A stretch of DNA of 64,000 bases, taken from assembly GCF_933509905.1 (NCBI RefSeq), contig NZ_OW150024.1, forward strand, positions 310,001-374,000, in the 5' to 3' direction. This DNA is from Trichlorobacter ammonificans. GTDB taxonomy: Bacteria; Desulfobacterota; Desulfuromonadia; Geobacterales; Pseudopelobacteraceae. The notes below the pieces were generated by a model. That model saw only the letters and a list, made by a program, of their open reading frames with translations. It had not been told where the DNA came from and ran no database searches. Below, piece after piece: positions 24,784 through 36,738 of the stretch. The position numbers and the translations under genes are program-made. Every line of letters begins with the position of its first letter. Within the stretch, counting starts at the first letter, position 1.

Positions 24784-27105
24784 TTAGGGATGCCGCTTCG
24801 CCCCGTAGGCGGCGATCGCCGCCTGTCCCAGGGCAATGCCGCCGTCGTTGGGAGGTGCCAGGCGGTGCGTGAAAACCAGGAAGCCTGACGCGGCAAGGGC
24901 AGTATATACCAATTCCGTCAGAAGGCGATTCTGAAACACGCCGCCGGAGAGAACCACCCGCTCAGGGCCGCCGTCAGCGCGTATCCGGCGGCAGCCGGCA
25001 GCCACGGCCTCCGCCAGGCCGCGATGGAAGGCCAGTGCCAGACGGTCGCGACCGGCGTCGCCGTCCGGGCCGTCCGCCAGGGCGCGGATCGCCGGCGTCG
25101 GGTCCACCACAAACGCTCCGTTATCGCCCAGCGTCAACGGGCAGGGGAGCGGCTGCGATTCCGCAGCATTCTCGGCTGCCGCCTCCAGCGCCATGGCAGC
25201 CTGGCCGTCAAAGCGGTTGATGCTGCCGAACCCCAGCAGTGCCGCCACGGCATCGAAGAGTCGGCCGATGCTGGACGTATAGGGCGCATTCACGCCCCGC
25301 TCCAGCATCAGGCGCAGGGTGGTCAGCTCCGCCGCCGGCATCTGCCGCAGCAGCGGCAGGTCGCGCTCGAAGCAGGCGGGGCCGTAGCTTTCGAACAGCC
25401 AGGAGAGGGCCATGCGCCAGGGCTCATGGGCTGCGGCATCACCGCCCGGCAGGCGGGCCTGCCGCAGGTGCCCGGCCCGGCGTACCCCGCCGTAGCCACC
25501 CACCAGGAATTCGCCCCCCCAGACCGTGCCGTCATACCCCAGGCCGGTACCATCGAAGATCACGCCGGTCACCTCGCCATCAAGGCTGTTTTCGGCCATG
25601 CAGGAGGCCATGTGGGCATGATGATGCTGCACCCGGACGATCGGACGAGCCTGGGCCCGGCTGCCGGTGGCGGTGTTGGCTTCCTGCTCCAAACGGAGAG
25701 CGTTGTCTTCGGCCAAGCGGGTGGAGAGATAGTCCGGGTGCAGATCGCAGGCCAGGAGTGCCGGCCTGACCTCCAGCATGCGGCAGAGATGTTCCACGGT
25801 CTCCCGGCAGGCCTCGAAGGTGGCCTCGTTCTTCAGATCCCCGATATGCTGGCTCATGAAGGCGTCGGCACCTCTGGTCAGGCAGACGGTGTTCTTCAGC
25901 TCCGCGCCGAAGGCCAGGACCGGGGGGGCGCTGAAAGGAAGCCGTACCGGACGGGGAACGAATCCCCGGGAGCGACGGTAGAAGATCGGTGCTCCCCGGA
26001 AGACCCGCAGCACCGAATCGTCGGTGCGCACCTGGATCGGCCGGTCGTGGGTCAGCAGCGCGTCGGCAATATCGGCCAGCTTGTCCCGGACCTCCCGGTC
26101 TCCGGCGATCATCGGTTCGTCGGAACGGTTGGCACTGGTCATGACCAGTGCCGGCAGCGTGGTTGCCAGGTTGCTGAAGAGCAGGTGATGCACCGGCGTG
26201 TAGGCCAGCAGCAGTCCCACCCAGCGGCTGTCCGGTGCCACCAGCGGCGACAGCGGGGTATCGGGCCGACGCCGTACGATGACGACCGGTGCGTCCGGGC
26301 CGGCCAGCAGCCGTTCCTCCATATCGGACAGACGGGCTATCAGCCGGGCCGTGGCCAAGTCCGGCACCATAACGGCGAACGGTTTTTCGTCGCGCTGCTT
26401 GCGGCTGCGCAGCCGGGCCACGGCCCCATCGTTGCACGCATCCACTGCCAGATGGAATCCCCCCAGTCCTTTCACCGCGACGATCAACCCCTGTCGCAGA
26501 AGAGAACCGGCATGCTCCAGCGGGGCGGGATGGTCAGGAACAAGCGAGAGCCGGGGACCGCAGGCGGGGCAGGCGATCGGCTGGGCGTGGAAGCGCCGGT
26601 CGAGCGGATCGCGGTATTCCGCCTCACAGGCGGGACAGAGTGGAAAGGCGGCCATGGTGGTCAGGGGGCGGTCGTAGGGGATGGCGCTGATGATGGTCCA
26701 GCGGGGGCCGCAGTTGGTGCAGGTGATGAAGGGATGCCGGAAACGGCGGTCGGCCGGATCGAACAGTTCCCGCAGACAGTCGGCGCACAGGGCGGTGTCC
26801 GGCGCGATCTGCACCTCCGGCATGCCGCCGCTGCTGGGCAGGATCTCGAAGCCGGTTGCGCCCGTCACCGTCGGCAGCTCCCGCTGTTCGCAGCGGGTGA
26901 CAACCGCCAGCGGCGGCAGCTCCGTCGTCAGGCGCTGTGCGAACCGTTCGACCGTGGCAGGCGCACCCTGCACTTCGATCTCCACCCCGGCCGGCGTGTT
27001 GCGGACCTGGCCGGACAGTGCCAGATCTGAAGCCAGACGAAAGACAAAGGGACGGAAGCCCACCCCCTGGACGATGCCGCTGATGGCAAAACGCCGGCGG
27101 ATCAT
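24784..27105 (-). CDS. hypF: Carbamoyltransferase HypF
   Basis: A 773-residue protein with the full HypF domain order. An acylphosphatase domain (GIVQGVGFRPFVFRLA) comes first, then two zinc fingers (CADCLRELF...CTNCGP and CPACEAEY...CPACGP). A YrdC-like domain follows (VAVKGLGGFHLAVDACND, KPFAVMV), then a Kae1-like domain with the metal-site HHHAHMASCMAE and VLSGGVFQNRLLTE. HypF uses carbamoyl phosphate and ATP to carbamoylate HypE, the source of the cyanide ligands of [NiFe] hydrogenase. I start at 27105 by family alignment. The ribosome site is weak, and the longer frame would run into the PilX-like gene ending at 27131. Confidence 0.95.
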   Translation of the reverse strand: MIRRRFAISGIVQGVGFRPFVFRLASDLALSGQVRNTPAGVEIEVQGAPATVERFAQRLTTELPPLAVVTRCEQRELPTVTGATGFEILPSSGGMPEVQIAPDTALCADCLRELFDPADRRFRHPFITCTNCGPRWTIISAIPYDRPLTTMAAFPLCPACEAEYRDPLDRRFHAQPIACPACGPRLSLVPDHPAPLEHAGSLLRQGLIVAVKGLGGFHLAVDACNDGAVARLRSRKQRDEKPFAVMVPDLATARLIARLSDMEERLLAGPDAPVVIVRRRPDTPLSPLVAPDSRWVGLLLAYTPVHHLLFSNLATTLPALVMTSANRSDEPMIAGDREVRDKLADIADALLTHDRPIQVRTDDSVLRVFRGAPIFYRRSRGFVPRPVRLPFSAPPVLAFGAELKNTVCLTRGADAFMSQHIGDLKNEATFEACRETVEHLCRMLEVRPALLACDLHPDYLSTRLAEDNALRLEQEANTATGSRAQARPIVRVQHHHAHMASCMAENSLDGEVTGVIFDGTGLGYDGTVWGGEFLVGGYGGVRRAGHLRQARLPGGDAAAHEPWRMALSWLFESYGPACFERDLPLLRQMPAAELTTLRLMLERGVNAPYTSSIGRLFDAVAALLGFGSINRFDGQAAMALEAAAENAAESQPLPCPLTLGDNGAFVVDPTPAIRALADGPDGDAGRDRLALAFHRGLAEAVAAGCRRIRADGGPERVVLSGGVFQNRLLTELVYTALAASGFLVFTHRLAPPNDGGIALGQAAIAAYGAKRHP

Positions 27106-27130
27106 GGCGGCATGCCCGCTGCCACTGGCA

Positions 27131-27745
27131 TCAGTAGGCGTAGAGCACTTCAATGTTGGCCTGGGCCTTCGCGGTGGCGGACCGCTCTCCCTGCAGCTCT
27201 ATCCGGTACAGGTAGGGGAAGTGCTGGGGGGTGATGCCCGACTGTGCCTCGGCGACGCCGGCCCCTTCCAGTTGCAGGCCGCTGATGTCGGTATTGCCGA
27301 TCAGGGTTTCGATGATCTTCGAATAGATGGTGTAGGGGCTGCCGCTGGCAGCCATCAGGTTGAAGGTCGCGTCGGGGCTCTGCTTCGGATCGGCGGTGTT
27401 GCTGCAGCCGGCCGGCCACTGGCTGGAGGGGAGGGTCAGCTTGCTCTGGATGCAGGAAGCGGTCGAGAGGAGTTGCAGGTTGACGGCGCTGAAGGTGCTG
27501 CCGGCCAGGGCTGCCAGATTTGAGTCCTGATAGTTCTTGAGCACATAGGGGAGGAGATCCTTGACGAACAGCTCGGAACCGCCGTAGCTGGCCTCAAGGG
27601 AGGTCCGGTACTTCTTGTAGGAGGCGGACACCGTGGTTCCCTGGACAATCATATACATGAGCGCCAGGATGATGGTCAGCGAGATCAGTGTCAGCATCAG
27701 CGAGGTGACCAGGGCGACCCCTTTGGTATTGTGCAGGCGTTTCAT
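27131..27745 (-). CDS. PilX-like minor pseudopilin / assembly protein
   Basis: A 204-residue protein with the PilX N-terminal pattern: a short basic leader (MKRLHNTK), then GVALVTSLMLTLISLTIILALMYMIVQ, one long hydrophobic helix, in place of the usual GFTLxE prepilin site. The body is Ser/Thr-rich with four Cys residues that could form disulfides. In the PilVWX-PilY1 systems PilX primes pilus assembly and binds PilY1. It is the last pilus gene of the operon; hypF follows after 25 bases. Confidence 0.8.
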   Translation of the reverse strand: MKRLHNTKGVALVTSLMLTLISLTIILALMYMIVQGTTVSASYKKYRTSLEASYGGSELFVKDLLPYVLKNYQDSNLAALAGSTFSAVNLQLLSTASCIQSKLTLPSSQWPAGCSNTADPKQSPDATFNLMAASGSPYTIYSKIIETLIGNTDISGLQLEGAGVAEAQSGITPQHFPYLYRIELQGERSATAKAQANIEVLYAY

Positions 27746-27761: not shown

Positions 27762-28988
27762 TTACTGGTTTGAAAGCAGGTTCTTCGGCCTGACGACGAT
27801 CCGGTGCAGCTTCCAGCGGTAGTTGAGCTGGTTTGCCGCCAGCGTGAAACCGCCCGCTCTGGTCAGGCTGGCTTCGCCGTCGTCACTCATCGCCAGGGGG
27901 GAGGGGCTGCTGTAGCCGCTGTCCCGCCTGCCGTTCTGGGCCAGCACGTAGACCTTGACCATCTTCAGGTTGGAGCGGATGTTCGGCAACAAGGTCAAGG
28001 AGTTGTTGTTTGTCGTACCGAGAGCTGCCTGCACGTTTGCCGTGGTACCCTCGGCGATGCCGCTGTTGACCTGGGAGCCGTCGGCATTCGAGTAGGTATC
28101 AAGCATCCCGTCGTTGTTCATGTCCCAGCCCAACACCACCTGCATGTCCAGCACGCAGTCCAGAAGCGGCAGGTAGAGCAGCTTGCCGTCGGCGTGCTTC
28201 ACGGTTGTTTTGTACAGGATACCGGTACCCGGTGCGCAGTAGGCGGGCAACTTGATGCTGCTGGTGGCGCCGGGCACTGCCACGAAGTAGTCGCTGCGAT
28301 TAAAGGGAAAGCGCAGGTCGCCGGTATCAACGCCGTAGAGCGTGTAAATGCTCTGCGACGACGAGGAAAGATGTTCGAAAGCAACGTCACTGTAAGCGTA
28401 GTAGAAATCGTCGGTCGGATCGCGCATCAGGCTGCTGCGTAGCGGAGTGCCGAACTGCTTGCGGATCAGGACCGCCCTGTCGCCGGAATCGAAGTTTTCG
28501 GCATTCGAGGCCCATTTTTGAACGCTGGCCATGCTGGACGATATTCTGAGGAAGGTCCACTTCTGGGCTGTCTTGGTTCGTCCTACGGTGGTGCCCTTGA
28601 TGGTCAGGTAATCGGAGCCGGCCATGACCGTGGTGGCGTCCAGGGTGGCGGCGGCAACGTTGTTGCCGAGCACCACCGGTCGGGGAACGTTGTCGGGGGC
28701 GTCGTTGTAGCTTGAGGCCGGCGCGTCGACGGCTTCGTTGGCATAAGCAGTGGGTTCGGTGAACAGCCCGTAACCGGCCTGTTGCAGGTCGTGGCGCAGC
28801 ATCTCCAACCCCACGATCCCTTCGATGTTGCTCTCCTCGCTCCGAAAGAGCTTGCCTGCCTGCTTGAGGATGGTGTCGAAGGAGCTGGCCGTAATCATCA
28901 GCACCACCATGAAGACCGCCATGACCACAATCAGTTCCACCAGGGTGAACCCGCGTTGCTTTCGTAGCATAGCCCGAGCCCCGTTCAT
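27762..28988 (-). CDS. PilW-like minor pseudopilin
   Basis: A 408-residue type IV prepilin-like protein. Its class III leader is MNGARAMLRKQRG, cleaved before FTLVELIVVMAVFMVVLMI, with the Glu at mature position 5. The large periplasmic domain has many Ser/Thr and Tyr residues and one CAPG and one DCVLDM Cys that may pair. PilW is a minor pilin of the PilVWX priming complex and is long in Geobacter-like species. The start overlaps the stop of the PilV-like gene by 4 bases (ATGA), so an internal ATG at 28970 is less likely. Confidence 0.82.
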   Translation of the reverse strand: MNGARAMLRKQRGFTLVELIVVMAVFMVVLMITASSFDTILKQAGKLFRSEESNIEGIVGLEMLRHDLQQAGYGLFTEPTAYANEAVDAPASSYNDAPDNVPRPVVLGNNVAAATLDATTVMAGSDYLTIKGTTVGRTKTAQKWTFLRISSSMASVQKWASNAENFDSGDRAVLIRKQFGTPLRSSLMRDPTDDFYYAYSDVAFEHLSSSSQSIYTLYGVDTGDLRFPFNRSDYFVAVPGATSSIKLPAYCAPGTGILYKTTVKHADGKLLYLPLLDCVLDMQVVLGWDMNNDGMLDTYSNADGSQVNSGIAEGTTANVQAALGTTNNNSLTLLPNIRSNLKMVKVYVLAQNGRRDSGYSSPSPLAMSDDGEASLTRAGGFTLAANQLNYRWKLHRIVVRPKNLLSNQ

Positions 28989-29386
28989 TGTTGTGCCTTG
29001 CTGACCACGCCGGCGGCATCATGGGTGTAGCGCGTCCCCTTGTGCCGCCAGATCACCTGAAAGCGGATTTCTTTGGAGTTCTCGTAGGTGATGCCAGAAT
29101 GGGCTACCGAGAAATTCCGGAAGCCGTTCAGTATCTGCCGGGACTCCACCAGGTATTTGGGCGTTAAAGGGGGGTGTGTGGAAACGGCGTCAAATCCCTT
29201 GGCCAGTTCCCGGGCCATGTAGCTGTCGGCCACCTGTACCGCCTCGTTTCTGAGCTGGTTCTGCAGGTTGTGGTTCAGGGCCACATTGACCGTCTGCAGC
29301 AGACCCAAAAGCCCCACCATGGCGATGAGCACCGCCACCAGAAATTCCAGCAGGGTGAATCCCCGGCTATTGCAGAGCACAGGCAT
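28985..29386 (-). CDS. PilV-like minor pseudopilin
   Basis: A 133-residue minor prepilin. The leader MPVLCNSRG precedes FTLLEFLVAVLIAMVGLLGLLQ, a typical class III cleavage site with Glu5. The body contains AVQVADSYMARELAKGF, like the PilV family. It overlaps the FimT-like gene upstream by 20 bases and the PilW-like gene downstream by 4 bases. The start at 29386 is set by the leader and by AAGGATGG upstream. Confidence 0.8.
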   Translation of the reverse strand: MPVLCNSRGFTLLEFLVAVLIAMVGLLGLLQTVNVALNHNLQNQLRNEAVQVADSYMARELAKGFDAVSTHPPLTPKYLVESRQILNGFRNFSVAHSGITYENSKEIRFQVIWRHKGTRYTHDAAGVVSKAQQ

Positions 29387-29870
29387 TGTTTTCCATCCTT
29401 CCCAGGTTGGTGCGGCCATAGTGGACCACGATGCAGTCCACCTGCGCCCTGATGTCACTCGGAGCGGTAATTTTGATGGTATCGAGGTCATTGGTGAACC
29501 CCCGGATATCGAACTCGAAAATCCGGTTAGCGATTGATGCTCCGCTTGCCTTGGTCAACGGGTAGGCGAGCGGCTTGGTGAAGAGGGCCGTGCCGCCGGT
29601 GCTCCGGTTTTCGTCGGCGGAGCTGAAGCGATAGAAGGTGTAACTTTGCGGCTGCAGCACCACCTTGTGCCGCTTCTTCATGAAGATCGAGTCGGTGCGG
29701 GCCTGGTTCAGATCGGCGAACAGCTCCCGCGTCTGGCGCTCGATCTGGCTCTTACGGCTCCAGGAGGTGAAGTTGAGCGTGACTAGCGTCAGCAGAATCC
29801 CGATGATACCGAGTACCACCACCAGTTCAAGCAGCGCGAATCCCCTGCCCTGTATGCCGTGACGTCGCAT
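29367..29870 (-). CDS. FimT/GspH-like pseudopilin
   Basis: A 167-residue pseudopilin. The leader MRRHGIQGRG is followed by FALLELVVVLGIIGILLTLV, then FTSWSRKSQIERQTRELFADLNQARTDSI, the usual FimT/GspH helix extension. The domain ends with a Cys pair (DCIVVHYGRTNLGRMENNAC) that could be bridged. FimT-like proteins are initiating minor pilins and in some species bind DNA. It lies 3 bases after the PilY1 stop, in the order pilY1-fimT-pilV-pilW-pilX. Confidence 0.82.
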   Translation of the reverse strand: MRRHGIQGRGFALLELVVVLGIIGILLTLVTLNFTSWSRKSQIERQTRELFADLNQARTDSIFMKKRHKVVLQPQSYTFYRFSSADENRSTGGTALFTKPLAYPLTKASGASIANRIFEFDIRGFTNDLDTIKITAPSDIRAQVDCIVVHYGRTNLGRMENNACALQ

Positions 29871-29873
29871 TGC

Positions 29874-32800
29874 CTACTTCTCCCTGATATGCAGATACTT
29901 CTTGACCGGCTTGGGGTTGGTGATCAGCGACAGCCCCTGGGCCGTGGGGGGAACCCCCTGGATCGGCGTGGCCAAACGTCGCCCCTGCAGCCGGAGGTTG
30001 CCGGGATTGCTGAATGCCGTGGCCAGCTTCACCTCGGCGAAGGCACCGGTGGACACCTGCATCAGCGCCGTTCCCTGCATGGTGCGGGCCGGCGGTACGC
30101 CGCCGGTGTTGTAGCGGAGCGCCCAGATCAACGTGTCCCCGCCGAACTTGCAGATGTCCGAGCTGGGTTTGAAGGTGGTGAAGAAGACGTTGCCGTTGGG
30201 CAGCGCCACCGGGTCGGTGATGACCCGTTCCGCCAGTGTTGCCGAATCGGCGGCGTCAAGGTTGATATACCATCCCGGTGCGGTTGCGGAAAGGGTGTCG
30301 GCAGGCGCCGTGGAGGCGTCGCCGCTCTGGTTGACGATGGTGCCGCTTACCGCGTCGGTGCAGGTGGGGGCGATATCGTTGTCCGTGCCGCCGGCCACGT
30401 TGGCCTGGGGGGTGTGGTCGGCCCGGTTGGCCGTCGAGTAGCAGGGCTCCTTGATGCCGTACAGCCGCTGCTGCACGGAGAGGGCCGGGTCATCGTTCTT
30501 GTAGAAGTAGCGGCCGGTGCCGAAATAGAGCCAAAGGGTCTTGTTGGGACGGTCCTGCAGCTTGGTGACGGTGGTGGTCACCGGGCCGATGTCGTTGATC
30601 ACCGTGCTGACCGTCCACTGGGCCGGATCGGGGTTGTCCTTGGTAACCAGGCGCAGGATGCCCCCCTTGGTCCAGGTGTTCGGGGCAACGGCAGTGTTCT
30701 TGGCGGTGTAGCCGATATAGACGGCATCATCGCTGTAGTAACCGTTGTCGCCCGATTTGGAGCGGTCGGTGTCGATGACCGCCGAGGAGAGGGTACCGGC
30801 AAAGGCGTTGGCGATGCCGGTGTCGATGGTTCTGAGCAGCGTACCGGTTTTGAGGTCAAGGATGAACAGCTTCAGGTTCTGGTTCGAGGTTCCCAGAAAC
30901 TGATGCTTGGTGGTATCGATGGGGCCGGTGGGGCCGGAGGCGAACACGGCGAACCATTTGCCGTTTCTGGCGTGGTCGGGGGTGACGCCGTCCGCCTTTT
31001 TCGTGCCCACCCGCACGATGGCCGGACCGGTGATAGCTGCCCCCAGGTAGTGGCCTGCAGCCGGATTGCCCTCGAACTCCCACAAATACTTCGGGTTGAC
31101 CGGGTCCTTGACGTCCAGGGCGAAGTAGGAGGAAAGGCCATAGTTGGTAATGGGGGCCTTGATACAGGTGCCGGCACTGCCGGCGGTGCAGCCGTCGGCG
31201 GATGTCCGGCTGGCCCCGCCGTACCCCATGCCGCCGATCAGTATCGTTGACCAGGTGGAACCGTCGGCAAGTTTTTCACAGGTGCTGTAATCGGTGGCAA
31301 CCGTGCATTTCGTGGTGTCCGCCGGGATCATGATGCTGGCGTCGACGATGGTGGGGGTCCGGTCCACCAGAAAGATGTGGTCGTAGTCGAGATTGGCGCA
31401 ATACGTCGCGTCGCCTCCTCCCTTCTTGCAGGTGAGATAGCGCAGGTAGGGAAGTGCGTTTTTGGGGATGAAGGACCAGAGCTCCTTGCCCAGCTGATCG
31501 GCGGCGTTGGCCAGGTTGCCCGTTTCGTCGTTCATCTGCGCCTTGCTGTAGTGGTCCGTCCGTTCGTGCAGCACACCCAGCTTGAAGGCGTGGAGCATGC
31601 CGTCGTTGCCGCCCACCAGGGCCATGCCCCGGTTCTGATAGGTGGGAGTTTTGGAAAAGGCCAGGTAGCTCGCATCATTGTAACCGTTGGGCGGCGCCAG
31701 GTCATAGGTATTCAGCTTGACGTTGGAGACCAGCTTGGGGGTGGAGGAGACGATGTCCCCCAGCTTCCATTCCCGGGTGCAGCCGGCGGCATCGGTAAGG
31801 CCGCAGCCGCTGATGGTCACCTTGCGGTCCCGGAAACCGGCCTGGTCGGTACCGTGCACATAGCTGATCACCTTGGTGGTGGTGGCTTCGTCGCCGGTCT
31901 GCATGGCGGCCCAGACGCCGGGCCAGGTGTTGAAATAGCCGTCCACCTCCAGGTTGCTGAACTTCTGCGGCGTGGTACCGGCGGTGGAGCCGTACCCGGT
32001 AAAAATGGTGCGCGGGGCGGTGGTCAGGTTCCGTTCCCAGAGCAGGCGTCCCGCTTTCCAGAGGCTTTTGACGTCGTCGGGCGAGATGGTGTCCACCGGT
32101 GTGGCGGAGTCCGCCAGGCCGTCGCCATTAGCGTCGGAGAAACGTCGCACCAGGGTTTTGCTTTGGGCCGGATCAAAGTAGAACTGGGTGACGTAGTCCT
32201 GCTGCAGGTTCAGGACATTGTCCTGAACGGTGTCCTCGCGGATGGAGGTCTTGTTCAGGAAGGGGTCGATGTAGTACCAGAGGTTCTGCATTTCACCGAT
32301 CCAGCCCACCTCGGTATTGTTGTCGAACTGTTTCTTGGGATAGAAGACCGCCTGCAGCAGGTTGGCGCCGCTCCCCTCGCTGTTGTTGAGGATCGATGCC
32401 GCCGTGCCCGAGGCGACCCGGGCCAGGATTTCGTTCAAGGCCTTTTCCAGCTGGCTATCCAATTCCAGGGGGTTGCTGACCGGAAAATAGTTGTCCGGCA
32501 GGCCGTCGCCATCCTTGTCCCACTTTGCCGCCGTGTCCGGCACGCCGCTGCCGGTGTAGCCGCCCCACTTGGCGGCGTACCAGAGCGGATTTTTCAGATA
32601 GCCGGCCGCCGGGGTGGCCGAAACGCTGAAATCCTTGACGCTGGTCAGGGGCAGGCCGCTTATGGGGGAGGTGCTGCCCACATCCTTGTCCTTCACCACC
32701 AGGTAGGTGCCGTCAGCCGTGGTTCCGGAAATGACGTAGCCCAGGACCTGGTCGATGCTGCCGGCGGCGTAGTCCGAGTTGACCTTGACCTGCACGCCGT

Positions 32801-35792
32801 TGATGGTGCCGCCGCAGGAGCCGTGACCGGCGTCCGCCGCCGCCTGGGTGCAGATTTCGTAGGTGGCGATGGCGTCCATGTCGTGGTCCGCCCCCTGCTC
32901 CACGTCCTCGAAGTTGATCCGGAACTTGGCGTAGATGATGTCGTTGCTGGTGTCGTATTTCAGGTCATCGATGTAGAAATCCACCAGCGCATTGGTTGGG
33001 CAATAGGCGGTGGGCTGGCAACTGGAAAGGGTCAGGCCGTCGGCGCCGATGCTGGCGGTGCACTTGTCCCAGCAGTTCTCCTTGATGCTGTAGCTTCCAC
33101 TGACCGATTTTCCCACCGGCACCACGTTGATGTACTTGCCGCCTGCCTTGATCTTGATGTCGGCAAAGGGAGAGGAGAGGGCGATGACGAAGGTGTTGAC
33201 CGCCGGTTTGCCGGTCTTTTCCGTGAACTTGGACTTGCCGTAGTAGGCCACGGCTGCCGCGTAGTAGGAGCCCTTCTTGGTCGGCTCCTCGGGGCAGGTA
33301 CCCCGCACCAGGGTAAGGTTGCCCACGCTTTTCGCGGAGCAGATGAAGTCGGTGCTGCCGTTGCTTTCGCCGATGAACCAGTTGTTGCCGTCGACCCCTT
33401 CGGTGGCGCTGATGGTTTCCAGCAACTGGTTGAGCAGTGATTTTCCGCCGCTCTGCACCCCCAGGCCCAGTTGCGGGGAGGCGGCATCTTCTGTGAAAAA
33501 GCTTCCGTCCGGTTTTGCGTACGAGCTGCCCGGAATCTGATCGGAATCGTAGCTGGTGTTGACGTCGGAGAGCACCAGCAGGAAGGGCTGGGCGCAACTG
33601 GGGAAGATGTCGTAGGGCTGGTACCAGGTGCTTCCCTTGTTGTAGCCCCAGGCCGGCTTGCTCAGGTTCACCCCGGAGTCAGCCGGCGTGGAATAGGTGA
33701 ATTCCGCAGTCGGCGTCCCCTTGCCGGCAAAGTAGCGCAGCGATTCGTACATCATCTCGGCGATGGGGTTGCCCCACATCTTGCATTCGCCTTCATTGAT
33801 GCCGCGCGTGGTGATCCAGCCGCAGTTGGAGTAGGAGCGGTTCGTGTAGCTGTAATCGATCAGCTTCATCCGGTCCATGCTGATGATCAGGTTGCCCTTG
33901 TCGCTCTCCGAGGTCTGCAGGCCGCCGTTGTTCATGTTCACTTCATCGGACACCGGCCCCGGATTCTTGCGCAGCACGCCGCCGGAGAGGTTCTTGGTGT
34001 AGGAGGTGGTCATGAAACCGAAGTACATGTCCGCCTTGTCGAAGCAGAGTCCCTCGCCGCTGCCGCAGTCGCTGTCGTTACCGCAGGGCTTGCCCATGGT
34101 CTTGGAGCAGACCTTGGTGACGCCGGTGCCGTCGGTCTTGTACTCACCGTACTTCTGGAACAGGCCGATGGGGCGATAGGTGGTGCCGTACAGCCGGCAG
34201 CGTTCGAACTTGTTGTCCTCCGACAGGGTGCCGACTCCCGATTTGCAGACCTCAACCTGCATGGTGTAGTCAGTGCGGTTGGTGACGGCGCTGGTGCCGT
34301 CGCTGAAGGTGTCGCCACAGACCGGTGACTCCTTGGAGGCCCATTCCCAGATCCGCTTGGTGGAGTTGGGGATAATCCGTACCAGGGTGGTGGCCTGGGG
34401 AGAGCTGGTCGGTTCGCCGCTGGCGAGGGTGGTGTTGCAGATCAGGTGACGGCCGGGGGCGGCGGCACCGGCATCGGCCTTGGGAACGCCGTTGGTGATG
34501 AAGTCCTCGCTTTTCAGGGTGCAGTCGTTGGTGCCGACCACGATGTTGGGGGCGCGGACATCGAGCGTGGGGCTGGTGGTTCTGTCGCCGAAGACGGTCC
34601 AGGAGGCAGCGCCGGGTTTCTTGAACCAGACCTTGACCCCGTCGCCGCCGTTGGATTCGAGGCCGCGGACGATCAGCCGGTACCAGGTCTTTTGCGCCAG
34701 GTTGATGGTGCCGCTGTGGGTCTGGCAGGAGCATTGGGCGTGACTGCCGTAGTAACTGATCTGGTCGGCGCCGCTCGTGGTCTGCACGATGTTGTTGTTG
34801 GCGATGTTGCGGACTTCCATCTCCACGCCGTCATCGCCGTCAATGGCGAACTGCCAGCCGCCGTTTTCACTGTTGCCGACGTAGAATTCCGCCACCACCA
34901 CGGTGGCGCAGTCATCACAGTGGTCAGTGGCCGGATTGAGGGCAGCATCGTCGAAGTTGGTGACGAAGACCGGGTTAAAGCCGCTTTTGAACTGAGTCGT
35001 GTCGATGGACGCCATGATGTCGGCATGGTCGCTGCCGTAGCTGCCGCTGGAGGGGTAGCGCACAACCAGCATCTTGTCCTTGCCGGGTTGGTTGTTCCCC
35101 CCCCAGGAGATGGTCGCCGTGGTGCAGGGGGCGCCGGCGGTGGGGGCGGCGCTGCCCAGCAGGTTGATCGACTTGTCGGTGCAGGCGTAGCCGCTGTCGC
35201 AATCGGCGTTGGTCAGGCACTGGGTCTTGTAGGCGCCGGTGGTGCTGTTGTAGCAGAGCCTGCCGGTATACTCCTTGCCCCAGCTGTGGGCGTCCTGGGG
35301 AATGTAGGCCCGGTTGAGCACGTTCTTGGGGCTTTCCTGGGAGCGCTGGCCGCCGTACATCACCTTGCGCAGCACATCCATCCGCGACATGGTGATCCAG
35401 TTGAGCAGGTTGCCGCTGATCTGGCCGCTGCTGCAGAAACGGTCGGTATTCGTGGCCACCGGCGTGTAAAGGTCGTTGCTGCCGGAACCGCCGGAATGGG
35501 TATAGCATTTGTAGGGATTGAAGTAGCCGTAGTACTCGATGGAGTGATCGTAGGTCCTGTCGATCCTGCCGTCGCCGTCGAGGTCAACCCCGTCGTTGTA
35601 GGCTTCGTAGTACAGCTTGTGATCCCGGCCGATTTCGAACATTACCATCGGGGGAACCGGCTGGGAGATGAACGGTGGCCTGACGCAGTAGTCGTTCATG
35701 GTTGCCCCGTGGACGGACATGACGGGCAGCAGGCAGGCGGCACACCCCGCCGTGACGACTCCCAACAGCTTGAACAGAGCTCGCGCACTCAT
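29874..35792 (-). CDS. PilY1-like pilus tip/adhesin protein (very large)
   Basis: A 1972-residue exported protein with a signal peptide (SARALFKLLGVVTAGCAACLL). The C-terminal third is a PilY1 beta-propeller (GNDGMLHAFKLGVLHE, MGYGGASRT, DLKTGTLLRTIDTG). EF-hand-like calcium loops occur at about residues 70-78 (DLDGDGRID), and further on as KDGDGLPDNY and DANGDGLAD. Residues 255-400 resemble a PA14-type ligand-binding domain (GGWQFAIDGDDGVEMEV, SYYGSHAQC, TWYRLIVRGLE). Short Cys modules of the form C-x4-DC-x-SG-x2-C occur near residue 192 and again in the middle. PilY1 sits at type IV pilus tips, controls retraction and adheres to surfaces. The start at 35792 has GAGGTG upstream. It is far longer than P. 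aeruginosa PilY1 (about 1160 residues). Confidence 0.85.
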   Translation of the reverse strand: MSARALFKLLGVVTAGCAACLLPVMSVHGATMNDYCVRPPFISQPVPPMVMFEIGRDHKLYYEAYNDGVDLDGDGRIDRTYDHSIEYYGYFNPYKCYTHSGGSGSNDLYTPVATNTDRFCSSGQISGNLLNWITMSRMDVLRKVMYGGQRSQESPKNVLNRAYIPQDAHSWGKEYTGRLCYNSTTGAYKTQCLTNADCDSGYACTDKSINLLGSAAPTAGAPCTTATISWGGNNQPGKDKMLVVRYPSSGSYGSDHADIMASIDTTQFKSGFNPVFVTNFDDAALNPATDHCDDCATVVVAEFYVGNSENGGWQFAIDGDDGVEMEVRNIANNNIVQTTSGADQISYYGSHAQCSCQTHSGTINLAQKTWYRLIVRGLESNGGDGVKVWFKKPGAASWTVFGDRTTSPTLDVRAPNIVVGTNDCTLKSEDFITNGVPKADAGAAAPGRHLICNTTLASGEPTSSPQATTLVRIIPNSTKRIWEWASKESPVCGDTFSDGTSAVTNRTDYTMQVEVCKSGVGTLSEDNKFERCRLYGTTYRPIGLFQKYGEYKTDGTGVTKVCSKTMGKPCGNDSDCGSGEGLCFDKADMYFGFMTTSYTKNLSGGVLRKNPGPVSDEVNMNNGGLQTSESDKGNLIISMDRMKLIDYSYTNRSYSNCGWITTRGINEGECKMWGNPIAEMMYESLRYFAGKGTPTAEFTYSTPADSGVNLSKPAWGYNKGSTWYQPYDIFPSCAQPFLLVLSDVNTSYDSDQIPGSSYAKPDGSFFTEDAASPQLGLGVQSGGKSLLNQLLETISATEGVDGNNWFIGESNGSTDFICSAKSVGNLTLVRGTCPEEPTKKGSYYAAAVAYYGKSKFTEKTGKPAVNTFVIALSSPFADIKIKAGGKYINVVPVGKSVSGSYSIKENCWDKCTASIGADGLTLSSCQPTAYCPTNALVDFYIDDLKYDTSNDIIYAKFRINFEDVEQGADHDMDAIATYEICTQAAADAGHGSCGGTINGVQVKVNSDYAAGSIDQVLGYVISGTTADGTYLVVKDKDVGSTSPISGLPLTSVKDFSVSATPAAGYLKNPLWYAAKWGGYTGSGVPDTAAKWDKDGDGLPDNYFPVSNPLELDSQLEKALNEILARVASGTAASILNNSEGSGANLLQAVFYPKKQFDNNTEVGWIGEMQNLWYYIDPFLNKTSIREDTVQDNVLNLQQDYVTQFYFDPAQSKTLVRRFSDANGDGLADSATPVDTISPDDVKSLWKAGRLLWERNLTTAPRTIFTGYGSTAGTTPQKFSNLEVDGYFNTWPGVWAAMQTGDEATTTKVISYVHGTDQAGFRDRKVTISGCGLTDAAGCTREWKLGDIVSSTPKLVSNVKLNTYDLAPPNGYNDASYLAFSKTPTYQNRGMALVGGNDGMLHAFKLGVLHERTDHYSKAQMNDETGNLANAADQLGKELWSFIPKNALPYLRYLTCKKGGGDATYCANLDYDHIFLVDRTPTIVDASIMIPADTTKCTVATDYSTCEKLADGSTWSTILIGGMGYGGASRTSADGCTAGSAGTCIKAPITNYGLSSYFALDVKDPVNPKYLWEFEGNPAAGHYLGAAITGPAIVRVGTKKADGVTPDHARNGKWFAVFASGPTGPIDTTKHQFLGTSNQNLKLFILDLKTGTLLRTIDTGIANAFAGTLSSAVIDTDRSKSGDNGYYSDDAVYIGYTAKNTAVAPNTWTKGGILRLVTKDNPDPAQWTVSTVINDIGPVTTTVTKLQDRPNKTLWLYFGTGRYFYKNDDPALSVQQRLYGIKEPCYSTANRADHTPQANVAGGTDNDIAPTCTDAVSGTIVNQSGDASTAPADTLSATAPGWYINLDAADSATLAERVITDPVALPNGNVFFTTFKPSSDICKFGGDTLIWALRYNTGGVPPARTMQGTALMQVSTGAFAEVKLATAFSNPGNLRLQGRRLATPIQGVPPTAQGLSLITNPKPVKKYLHIREK

Positions 35793-35796
35793 GACG

Positions 35797-36096
35797 TCAC
35801 CTCTCCACCTCAATTTCATAGACCATCCTGCCCCGCGTTTTCAGATGTACCTTCTTGCCGGTGGAAACGTCGGAAAGCCGCCCTTTTCGTTGGTAGAAGG
35901 CACCGTTCGCTTCCCGTACGATCAGCACAACCGTCACCTCCGGCCGTAACTGGTAGGCCTCGTCTCCGATGGTGATCTGGTTGTTGCCGATGGAGGCGAC
36001 AACGCCGCTCTGGTAGACGTGCCGGGTCGTGGCGGCGTTTGCCGGTGCGGCGTCCATGATCAGCAGGGAGGCCAGTGCAAGGATCACGATACGCAT
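35797..36096 (-). CDS. Small exported protein of the PilY1 operon
   Basis: A 99-residue protein with a signal peptide (MRIVILALASLLIMDAAPA, cleavage near NAATT). The mature part, about 75 residues, looks all-beta (VYQSGVVASIGNNQITIGDEAYQLRPE, GRLSDVSTGKKVHLKTRGR) and has no Cys. I do not recognise a named family. Its place between the haem protein and pilY1 suggests a role with PilY1 outside the inner membrane. The ATG at 36096 has AGGAG 8 bases upstream; an ATG at 36120 that overlaps the upstream stop has none. Confidence 0.7.
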   Translation of the reverse strand: MRIVILALASLLIMDAAPANAATTRHVYQSGVVASIGNNQITIGDEAYQLRPEVTVVLIVREANGAFYQRKGRLSDVSTGKKVHLKTRGRMVYEIEVER

Positions 36097-36116
36097 GGAG
36101 ATGCTCCTGTACAGTG

Positions 36117-36479
36117 TCATGGGGTGGTGCTCGTTTCCGGCGGAACCGTCGGACGCAGCTGTCCTGCGTCGACGATTACTCCCTGCATCAGCAGTTTTTT
36201 TGCGTAGTCGACGTAGATGATCCCCTCCCTGCCGTCACGTTCAGCCACAACCTCGAACAGGCCGGCAACCGGTGAGTGCCGCACCGTCTTCACGGTCAGG
36301 TTCAACGGTTTGATCAGTGCGGCAGCCTCTTGGCTGCTCAGTGTGTGGCAGGTCGTACAGTCGTGGCCCGCCGGGACCCGCTGGGCTCCGGCGGGGGGAG
36401 GGGACGCAAGGGCGGCTGTTGCCACGACCAGCAGGGCCGGCAGGAAGAGGCGGAATCGGTCAGGGAGACTTCCGGGCAT
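36117..36479 (-). CDS. Exported CxxCH protein with a DsbC_N-like domain
   Basis: A 120-residue exported protein and first gene of the PilY1/pseudopilin operon. A signal peptide (residues 1-32) is followed by a CxxCH motif at 41-45 (CTTCH), which is a haem c site or a bare Cys pair. Residues 48-105 resemble the N-terminal dimerisation domain of DsbC/DsbG (SSQEAAALIKPLNLTVKTV, SPVAGLFEVVAERDG, IIYVDYAKKLLMQG). The catalytic thioredoxin domain of DsbC is absent. The ATG at 36479 is chosen because AGGAG lies 9 bases upstream; 36485 and a TTG at 36488 are alternatives. Function unknown; a redox or assembly role for the Cys-rich PilY1 is a guess. Confidence 0.7.
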   Translation of the reverse strand: MPGSLPDRFRLFLPALLVVATAALASPPPAGAQRVPAGHDCTTCHTLSSQEAAALIKPLNLTVKTVRHSPVAGLFEVVAERDGREGIIYVDYAKKLLMQGVIVDAGQLRPTVPPETSTTP

Positions 36480-36577
36480 ATGCATCAACTCCTGTGGTGT
36501 CCGGCGGCGCAGGCGTCATCCAGCTTGGGTGAGCCGCTGGGCGTGTTGTGTCTGCACGAGCTGGTCTGTTTTGTGTA

Positions 36578-36593
36578 TGCACAGGATGTGCCG
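36578..36593 (-). promoter_or_regulatory. Sigma-54-type promoter of the PilY1/pseudopilin operon
   Basis: The minus strand reads CGGCACATCCTGTGCA, compared with TGGCAC-N5-TTGCA: the GG and GC and their spacing are kept, GGCAC is exact, and two other positions differ. Transcription would begin near 36567, about 88 bases before the first ORF. Two near-identical 12-mers, TTGTGTCTGCAC (36546-36557) and TTGTGTATGCAC (36571-36582), repeat with a 25-base period across it. Confidence 0.5.
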
Positions 36594-36652
36594 GAGGGAT
36601 GGCGTGTTTAATGTGTTGATATTGTGTGGGTATTTCGGATTGCTGTGAATTG

Positions 36653-36671
36653 GTATGCAAAGTTTGCATAC
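36653..36671. promoter_or_regulatory. Perfect 19-bp palindrome, candidate enhancer/operator
   Basis: GTATGCAAAGTTTGCATAC is a perfect inverted repeat with 9-bp arms and a single central base. It lies about 60 bases upstream of the -24 element of the sigma-54-like promoter, a distance suited to a sigma-54 activator dimer. It is also just beyond the stop of alr. The protein that binds it cannot be named. Confidence 0.6.
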
Positions 36672-36738
36672 TTGTGCCCGGAAGGATCGGGCTGCACCGC
36701 AACTTTTGCGCTGTCGCTGGCCGCCCAGCGTGGGTACC

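Follow-up and report, generated by a model that had tools for sequence, protein, structure and literature searches.

A predicted sigma-54 promoter cassette in front of a pilus-tip operon of Trichlorobacter ammonificans and its candidate activator encoded elsewhere in the genome

Described pilus regulators and the operon in the window

RpoN and PilR control pilA in Geobacter sulfurreducens (PMC2725144), an arrangement that resembles the one reported here in its NtrC-family regulator beside the target, its sigma-54 promoter and its pilus gene; here, however, the target is a pilus-tip operon, the regulator is linked to pilD and the dyad in question is absent from the organism's own pilA promoter. 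A two-component system with an NtrC-like regulator also acts at pilY1 promoters in Myxococcus xanthus, where HsfA of the HsfBA pair directly binds the pilY1.1 and pilY1.3 promoters (PMC9109919), although HsfB is a hybrid kinase, the regulon additionally includes lonD and secondary-metabolite genes, and the likeness drawn here is one of description. IHF-assisted sigma-54 promoters, those of Geobacter included (PMC7962754), typically have their IHF site placed between the enhancer and the promoter, and the cassette described below is the same in principle; neither pilY1 nor GSU203x is named in the main text of that paper. The same pilY1/minor-pilin gene set as here occurs among the pilus genes GSU2029–GSU2039 of G. 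sulfurreducens, which are co-regulated and up to 3.8-fold upregulated at 1% O2; the authors describe these genes as not having been studied in detail, and their regulator is not identified there (PMC6964889).

The window, as we call the whole 64,000-nucleotide stretch analysed here, corresponds to G000:C1:310001-374000 of the complete 3.06 Mb genome, and plain coordinates below refer to it. Its minus strand carries, in this order, g1, g2, pilY1, fimT, pilV, pilW and pilX, which bears out the gene order and close spacing given in the original prediction. The lead gene g1 (36117..36479) encodes a 120-aa exported CxxCH protein with a DsbC_N domain only, and has AGGAG 9 nt before its ATG. It overlaps by 4 bp with g2 (35797..36120), which encodes a small exported protein that matched no Pfam or NCBIfam model; several other genomes of the order likewise have g2 immediately ahead of pilY1. 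The pilY1 gene (29874..35792) encodes a pilus-tip adhesin/primer of 1972 aa, which scored 19.9 bits against Pfam T4P_PilY1, below the cut-off of 28.1; the minor-pilin neighbourhood and the homologues fit PilY1. Four minor-pilin genes complete the operon, namely a fimT/gspH-like gene (29367..29870), a pilV-like gene (28985..29386, its start inferred from the prepilin motif), a pilW-like gene (27762..28988) and a pilX-like gene (27131..27745, with a weak, below-cut-off match to PilX_N), all on the minus strand.

Upstream lies alr, which has the same orientation and ends 68 bp away. On the downstream side (24784-27153), no more than ~30 bp separate the stop of pilX from the start of hypF, which has the same orientation and is followed by hypD, and these hydrogenase maturation genes may receive read-through from the pilus promoter.

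Promoter parts in front of g1 and their conservation

The −24/−12 element and the palindrome of the original prediction were both located in front of g1, the palindrome being perfect, and the interval holds two parts beyond these, a distal dyad and an IHF consensus. The sigma-54 element CCGGCACATCCTGTGCA (36578..36594, minus strand) has the form GG-N10-GC, which is kept in relatives, and its position predicts a transcription start at 36567. With offsets counted from the first base of this element, the predicted IHF-type site TATCAACACATTA (36609..36621, minus strand), a perfect match to WATCAANNNNTTR, lies at −27; the predicted proximal activator site, the perfect dyad GTATGCAAACTTTGCATAC (36653..36671, no strand assigned; 14/14), lies at the conserved −76; and the predicted distal activator site, the degenerate dyad AGCGCAAAAGTTGCGGT (36696..36712, minus strand; 8/14 to TATGCAA-N3-TTGCATA), lies at −118. 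Relative to the predicted start, the dyad centres fall at ~−95 and ~−137. Enhancer-activated sigma-54 promoters have activator sites ~80–150 bp upstream of the start, and an IHF site between these and the promoter is common, if not universal. The promoter in the window fits this layout in its −24 GG and −12 GC 10 bp apart, in the distance of its activator sites and in the position of its IHF site. The leader from the predicted start to the g1 ATG is ~88 nt, longer than in relatives, and rpoN is encoded in the same genome (G000:C1:940984-941463, E 1.6e-65).

From the window alone, neither the palindrome nor the sigma-54 element would be convincing. Perfect palindromes with 9-bp arms occur four times in the 64 kb, against ~1.2 expected under a Markov model; the probability of one falling inside the 250-bp gap upstream of g1 is ~0.002, the score of the sigma-54 element has a shuffle P of 0.025, and no second site in the genome comes within 3 mismatches of the GTATGCAAACTTTGCATAC palindrome. 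Reading the palindrome as an isolated curiosity was rejected, perfect 9-bp-arm palindromes arising by chance about once per window. Perfect palindromes with 10-bp arms are also present at 32208-32228 in pilY1 and at 26132-26151 in hypF, and are probably due to chance. An alignment of the window with the nearest relative, G066, was by itself suggestive only. We accept the elements as real because comparison with a wider set of relatives shows the two-part combination about once per pilY1 operon.

This set comprised 76 genomes of the family and 65 others of the order (141 in all), with homologues of g1 in 66 and of pilY1 in 62 of the 76. The sigma-54 element GGCAY-N5-TTGC was present upstream of dsbC in 33 of 69 loci, mostly 50–60 bp before the ATG, and in these 33 promoters the dyad TATGCAA-N3-TTGCATA usually occurs twice, at −76 (±1 or 2) and at ~−119 from the sigma-54 element. 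The 33 promoters contain 59 dyad matches of at least 10/14, where shuffling gives a mean of 5; this control overstates independence, as the matched promoters are related and several loci are near-duplicates. The distal dyads of most relatives match at 10–13 of 14 positions and are located at −118 to −122. The window holds the only perfect (14/14) proximal dyad found, one locus (L203) has a perfect distal copy, and the proximal dyad of G066 matches at 11/14. An IHF-type consensus recurs at −27/−28 in most relatives and is perfect in 4 of 40 cassettes, against 0.08 expected. The related loci, 1.22 Mb in total, gave 49 cases of a sigma-54 element with a correctly spaced proximal dyad, among them ~8 that are plainly artefacts (antisense matches, for example) and the window twice, compared to 14 cases in 3.27 Mb of Markov-2 sequence.

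Most relatives have the gene order pilD-kinase-regulator-[cassette]-dsbC-pilY1-minor pilins. In other loci the gap between regulator and dsbC is only ~28–73 bp and contains no promoter of the cassette type, and in nine of these tight loci the cassette follows dsbC and precedes pilY1; the cassette thus goes with the pilY1 operon, not with dsbC. Both elements of the original prediction are kept at fixed spacing across the order, the opposite of the missing conservation that would have counted against it, and judged by this comparison, distal dyad, proximal dyad, IHF consensus and sigma-54 element are one fixed cassette. The conserved spacing supports the prediction's main inference, that of a sigma-54 operon probably switched on by an activator, with the palindrome as the putative enhancer site.

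The same evidence bears on a different reading, in which the palindrome serves a repressor or belongs to the alr 3′ end, and transcription of the operon starts at a sigma-70 promoter or comes through from alr. With alr ending so close upstream on the same strand, and with a 19-bp palindrome that by itself would suit a repressor, such an arrangement is conceivable; most relatives, however, have no alr upstream and yet keep the dyad-to-sigma-54 spacing, and the palindrome is neither G+C-rich nor followed by a T run, which makes this reading very improbable.

Model searches gave a matching picture. A sequence-only model (R2) built from 33 cassettes, with the window, G066 and three others left out, placed the operon promoter first in its own 3.06 Mb genome, as the single strong match (E 1.0e-5), followed by two partial matches (0.0165 and 0.059); these E-values are rough, their calibration having been shortened. 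In these pattern and model searches for a regulon, the next-best match (0.0165), at 1315606, is the pilA promoter and covers model positions 88–141 only (IHF and sigma-54), the dyads being missing, and a match at 2810212 within a coding region was rejected as probably due to chance. Across the 141 genomes of the order, the first model (R1) matched 58 of the 76 family genomes at E ≤ 1e-3, as well as genomes of two other families. Among 26 non-family matches read, which were taken from the better-scoring ones and not at random, 25 had an NtrC-type regulator on one side and dsbC or pilY1 on the other; in two of the 25 one of these sides is lost at a contig edge, namely the regulator in L188 and L189 and the downstream side in L178. 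One non-family match (L209), on a 3-kb contig without any of the genes and without a dyad, was discarded as spurious.

A candidate activator separated from its target

In most relatives, the gene just upstream of the cassette is that of an NtrC-type response regulator, and where the sequence before it was read, genes for a histidine kinase and PilD come first. In the genome of the window, pilD, kinase, regulator and full-length dsbC stand together at ~933–938 kb (L070), 588 kb from the operon. The kinase of this cluster is a HAMP histidine kinase. The candidate activator gene in the cluster (G000:C1:934107-935465) is of NtrC type and specifies a protein with the Pfam domains Response_reg (REC), Sigma54_activat and HTH_8 and an intact GAFTGA motif. 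Its product scores 556–754 bits against cassette-adjacent regulators elsewhere, compared to 463 bits for the best paralogue in its own genome. Among 41 regulators placed in a tree, it is sister to the regulator of G066 (98/98) and nested in the cassette-adjacent clade (100/99), and the five best paralogues of its own genome fall apart from it. In G066, the pilY1 operon is likewise located behind alr, and the regulator lies on another contig beside full-length dsbC (L066). The simplest reading is that operon and promoter moved together, once, in the common ancestor with G066, and left the regulator behind. Since the operon and promoter would thus have moved behind alr while the orthologous regulator stayed 588 kb away, the 934-kb regulator should act on the operon in trans.

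Several other features of these loci were observed. The rpoN gene lies ~5.5 kb from the regulator, and rapZ-, hprK- and PTS EIIA-like genes (L070:10114-11995) adjoin the pilD-kinase-regulator cluster. The gap between the regulator and full-length dsbC (L070:6044-6105, G000:C1 ~934.05–934.1 kb) has no cassette and contains an inverted repeat, AGCCAAAC-N7-GTTTGGCT, possibly an attenuator. In three genomes of genus g4 (L202, L203 and L205, from G024, G016 and G031), a cassette-bearing pilY1 operon and the regulator-dsbC pair lie on different contigs; a single regulator may serve two tip operons there, or other splits may have occurred. A second split in G072/G073 is not claimed, the weak model matches there not being cassettes upstream of the matching pilY1. 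We take GSU2041–2043 to be the regulator, kinase and pilD of G. sulfurreducens; GSU2041 was not named in any paper found in the openly accessible literature.

PilR, which the original prediction cited together with RpoN for Geobacter pilus genes, is not favoured as the activator by these data, as the organism's own pilA promoter is without the operon's dyad and the dyad motif is linked to the pilD-kinase-regulator locus. This pilA gene, which encodes a short Geobacter-type pilin (L193:3530-3700, G000:C1 ~1315.5–1315.7 kb), has an IHF and sigma-54 promoter (TATCAGTGTGTTG, TGGCACTGCTTTTGCT) arranged as in the cassette, but with an upstream repeat, TGACA ... TGTCA, that is unlike the cassette dyad and is a candidate PilR site. 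An activator site shared with this promoter, as looked for in a member of the PilR regulon, was not found. The promoter could still be of sigma-54 type with PilR or another NtrC-type protein having taken over the palindrome after the operon moved, given that besides this regulator the genome has genes for more than 20 sigma-54-type activators, each of them a possible new occupant of the site, and that PilR is a known regulator, with RpoN, of Geobacter pilA (PMC2725144). We consider such a takeover unlikely: the dyad fits the order-wide motif tied to the pilD-kinase-regulator locus, and does so more closely than any other proximal site, while for PilR in particular the pilA promoter matches the model at 88–141 only and carries its different repeat. 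The activator is probably the second, pilD-linked two-component system, not PilR.

We therefore regard it as likely that 36578-36712 is an enhancer-dependent sigma-54 promoter of the g1-to-pilX operon, with the 934-kb regulator as the most likely activator. From sequence conservation, spacing, linkage in relatives and regulator orthology, we infer binding, phosphorylation, IHF bending, a start site and a signal, as follows. The phosphorylated NtrC-type regulator, most likely the product of G000:C1:934107-935465 acting in trans, would bind at 36653-36671, where the dyad is perfect, and less strongly at 36696-36712, where it is degenerate; IHF would bend the DNA at 36609-36621, and the AAA+ domain of the activator would open the RpoN polymerase complex at 36578-36594, so that transcription would begin near 36567. 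Low oxygen is one candidate for the signal. The 8/14 distal dyad of the window, the 11/14 proximal dyad of G066 and the long leader speak against this mechanism. The decay of the distal dyad and the no longer perfect proximal dyad of G066 would also suit a cassette that is a decaying relic of the relocation, in front of an operon expressed weakly or constitutively. That is the least probable of the readings considered, as the proximal dyad of the window is the only one at 14/14, its IHF site is perfect, the −24/−12 element has been retained, and purifying selection seems to act on g1, g2 and pilY1.

The lead protein and control of the pilus tip

The description of the lead gene as encoding an exported CxxCH/DsbC_N-like protein held up, with a DsbC_N match (PF10411, 34.8 bits against a cut-off of 25, E 1.2e-8) and CTTCH as the CxxCH motif behind a signal-peptide-like N-terminus; its haem-like reading is possible but unproven. 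Over its first ~107 residues, g1 is 38% identical to the full-length DsbC of its own genome. Its homologues are nearly all full-length (~260 aa) DsbC-like proteins that keep the N-terminal CxxCH and carry a CPYC thioredoxin motif, and are usually encoded before pilY1. A thioredoxin domain with CxxC is absent from g1, and the overlap of g2 with the g1 stop leaves no room for one. The short form is also present in G066, where the comparison gives an NG86 dN/dS of ~0.09 with dS saturated, a rough sign only of purifying selection on g1. By these comparisons, g1 appears to be a relative of DsbC that has lost the thioredoxin domain and retained CxxCH; it shares DsbC_N with the DsbC disulfide isomerase, full-length CPYC homologues of which occupy this operon in relatives, and differs from it in lacking the thioredoxin domain and in its extra N-terminal CxxCH.

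As the PilY1 encoded here has 45 cysteines, g1 may plausibly assist its folding; nothing specific was found in the literature on PilY1 together with DsbC. An analogy with TfcP of M. xanthus suggests a possible haem role: this non-canonical cytochrome c, needed for PilY1.1, is like g1 exported, contains CxxCH and has its gene alongside pilY1 and minor-pilin genes (PMC8833165). In TfcP, however, there is a cytochrome c domain whose distal ligand is Cys, whereas g1, which matched no cytochrome model, has a DsbC_N domain and is thus an analogue at best.

Tentatively, the whole order may have kept a two-component system dedicated to about one target, the pilus-tip operon, beside PilSR for the shaft; here, system and target would have been uncoupled, the operator sharpened to a perfect dyad for control in trans, and the DsbC partner turned into a catalysis-free, possibly haem-bearing PilY1 chaperone. 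The switch is of a known kind, of which this member is apparently undescribed, and the link between regulator and target is apparently new, as judged from the open literature. Geobacter-type pili are studied for their roles in metal reduction and electricity production, and no description of how the tip complex of PilY1 and minor pilins is switched on was found in openly accessible papers. With the operator motif defined, a regulator named and a start predicted, control of the pilus tip can be tested directly and could be told apart from that of PilA, the shaft protein. The split locus would offer a clean case in which regulator and target were uncoupled in evolution and the operator was kept.
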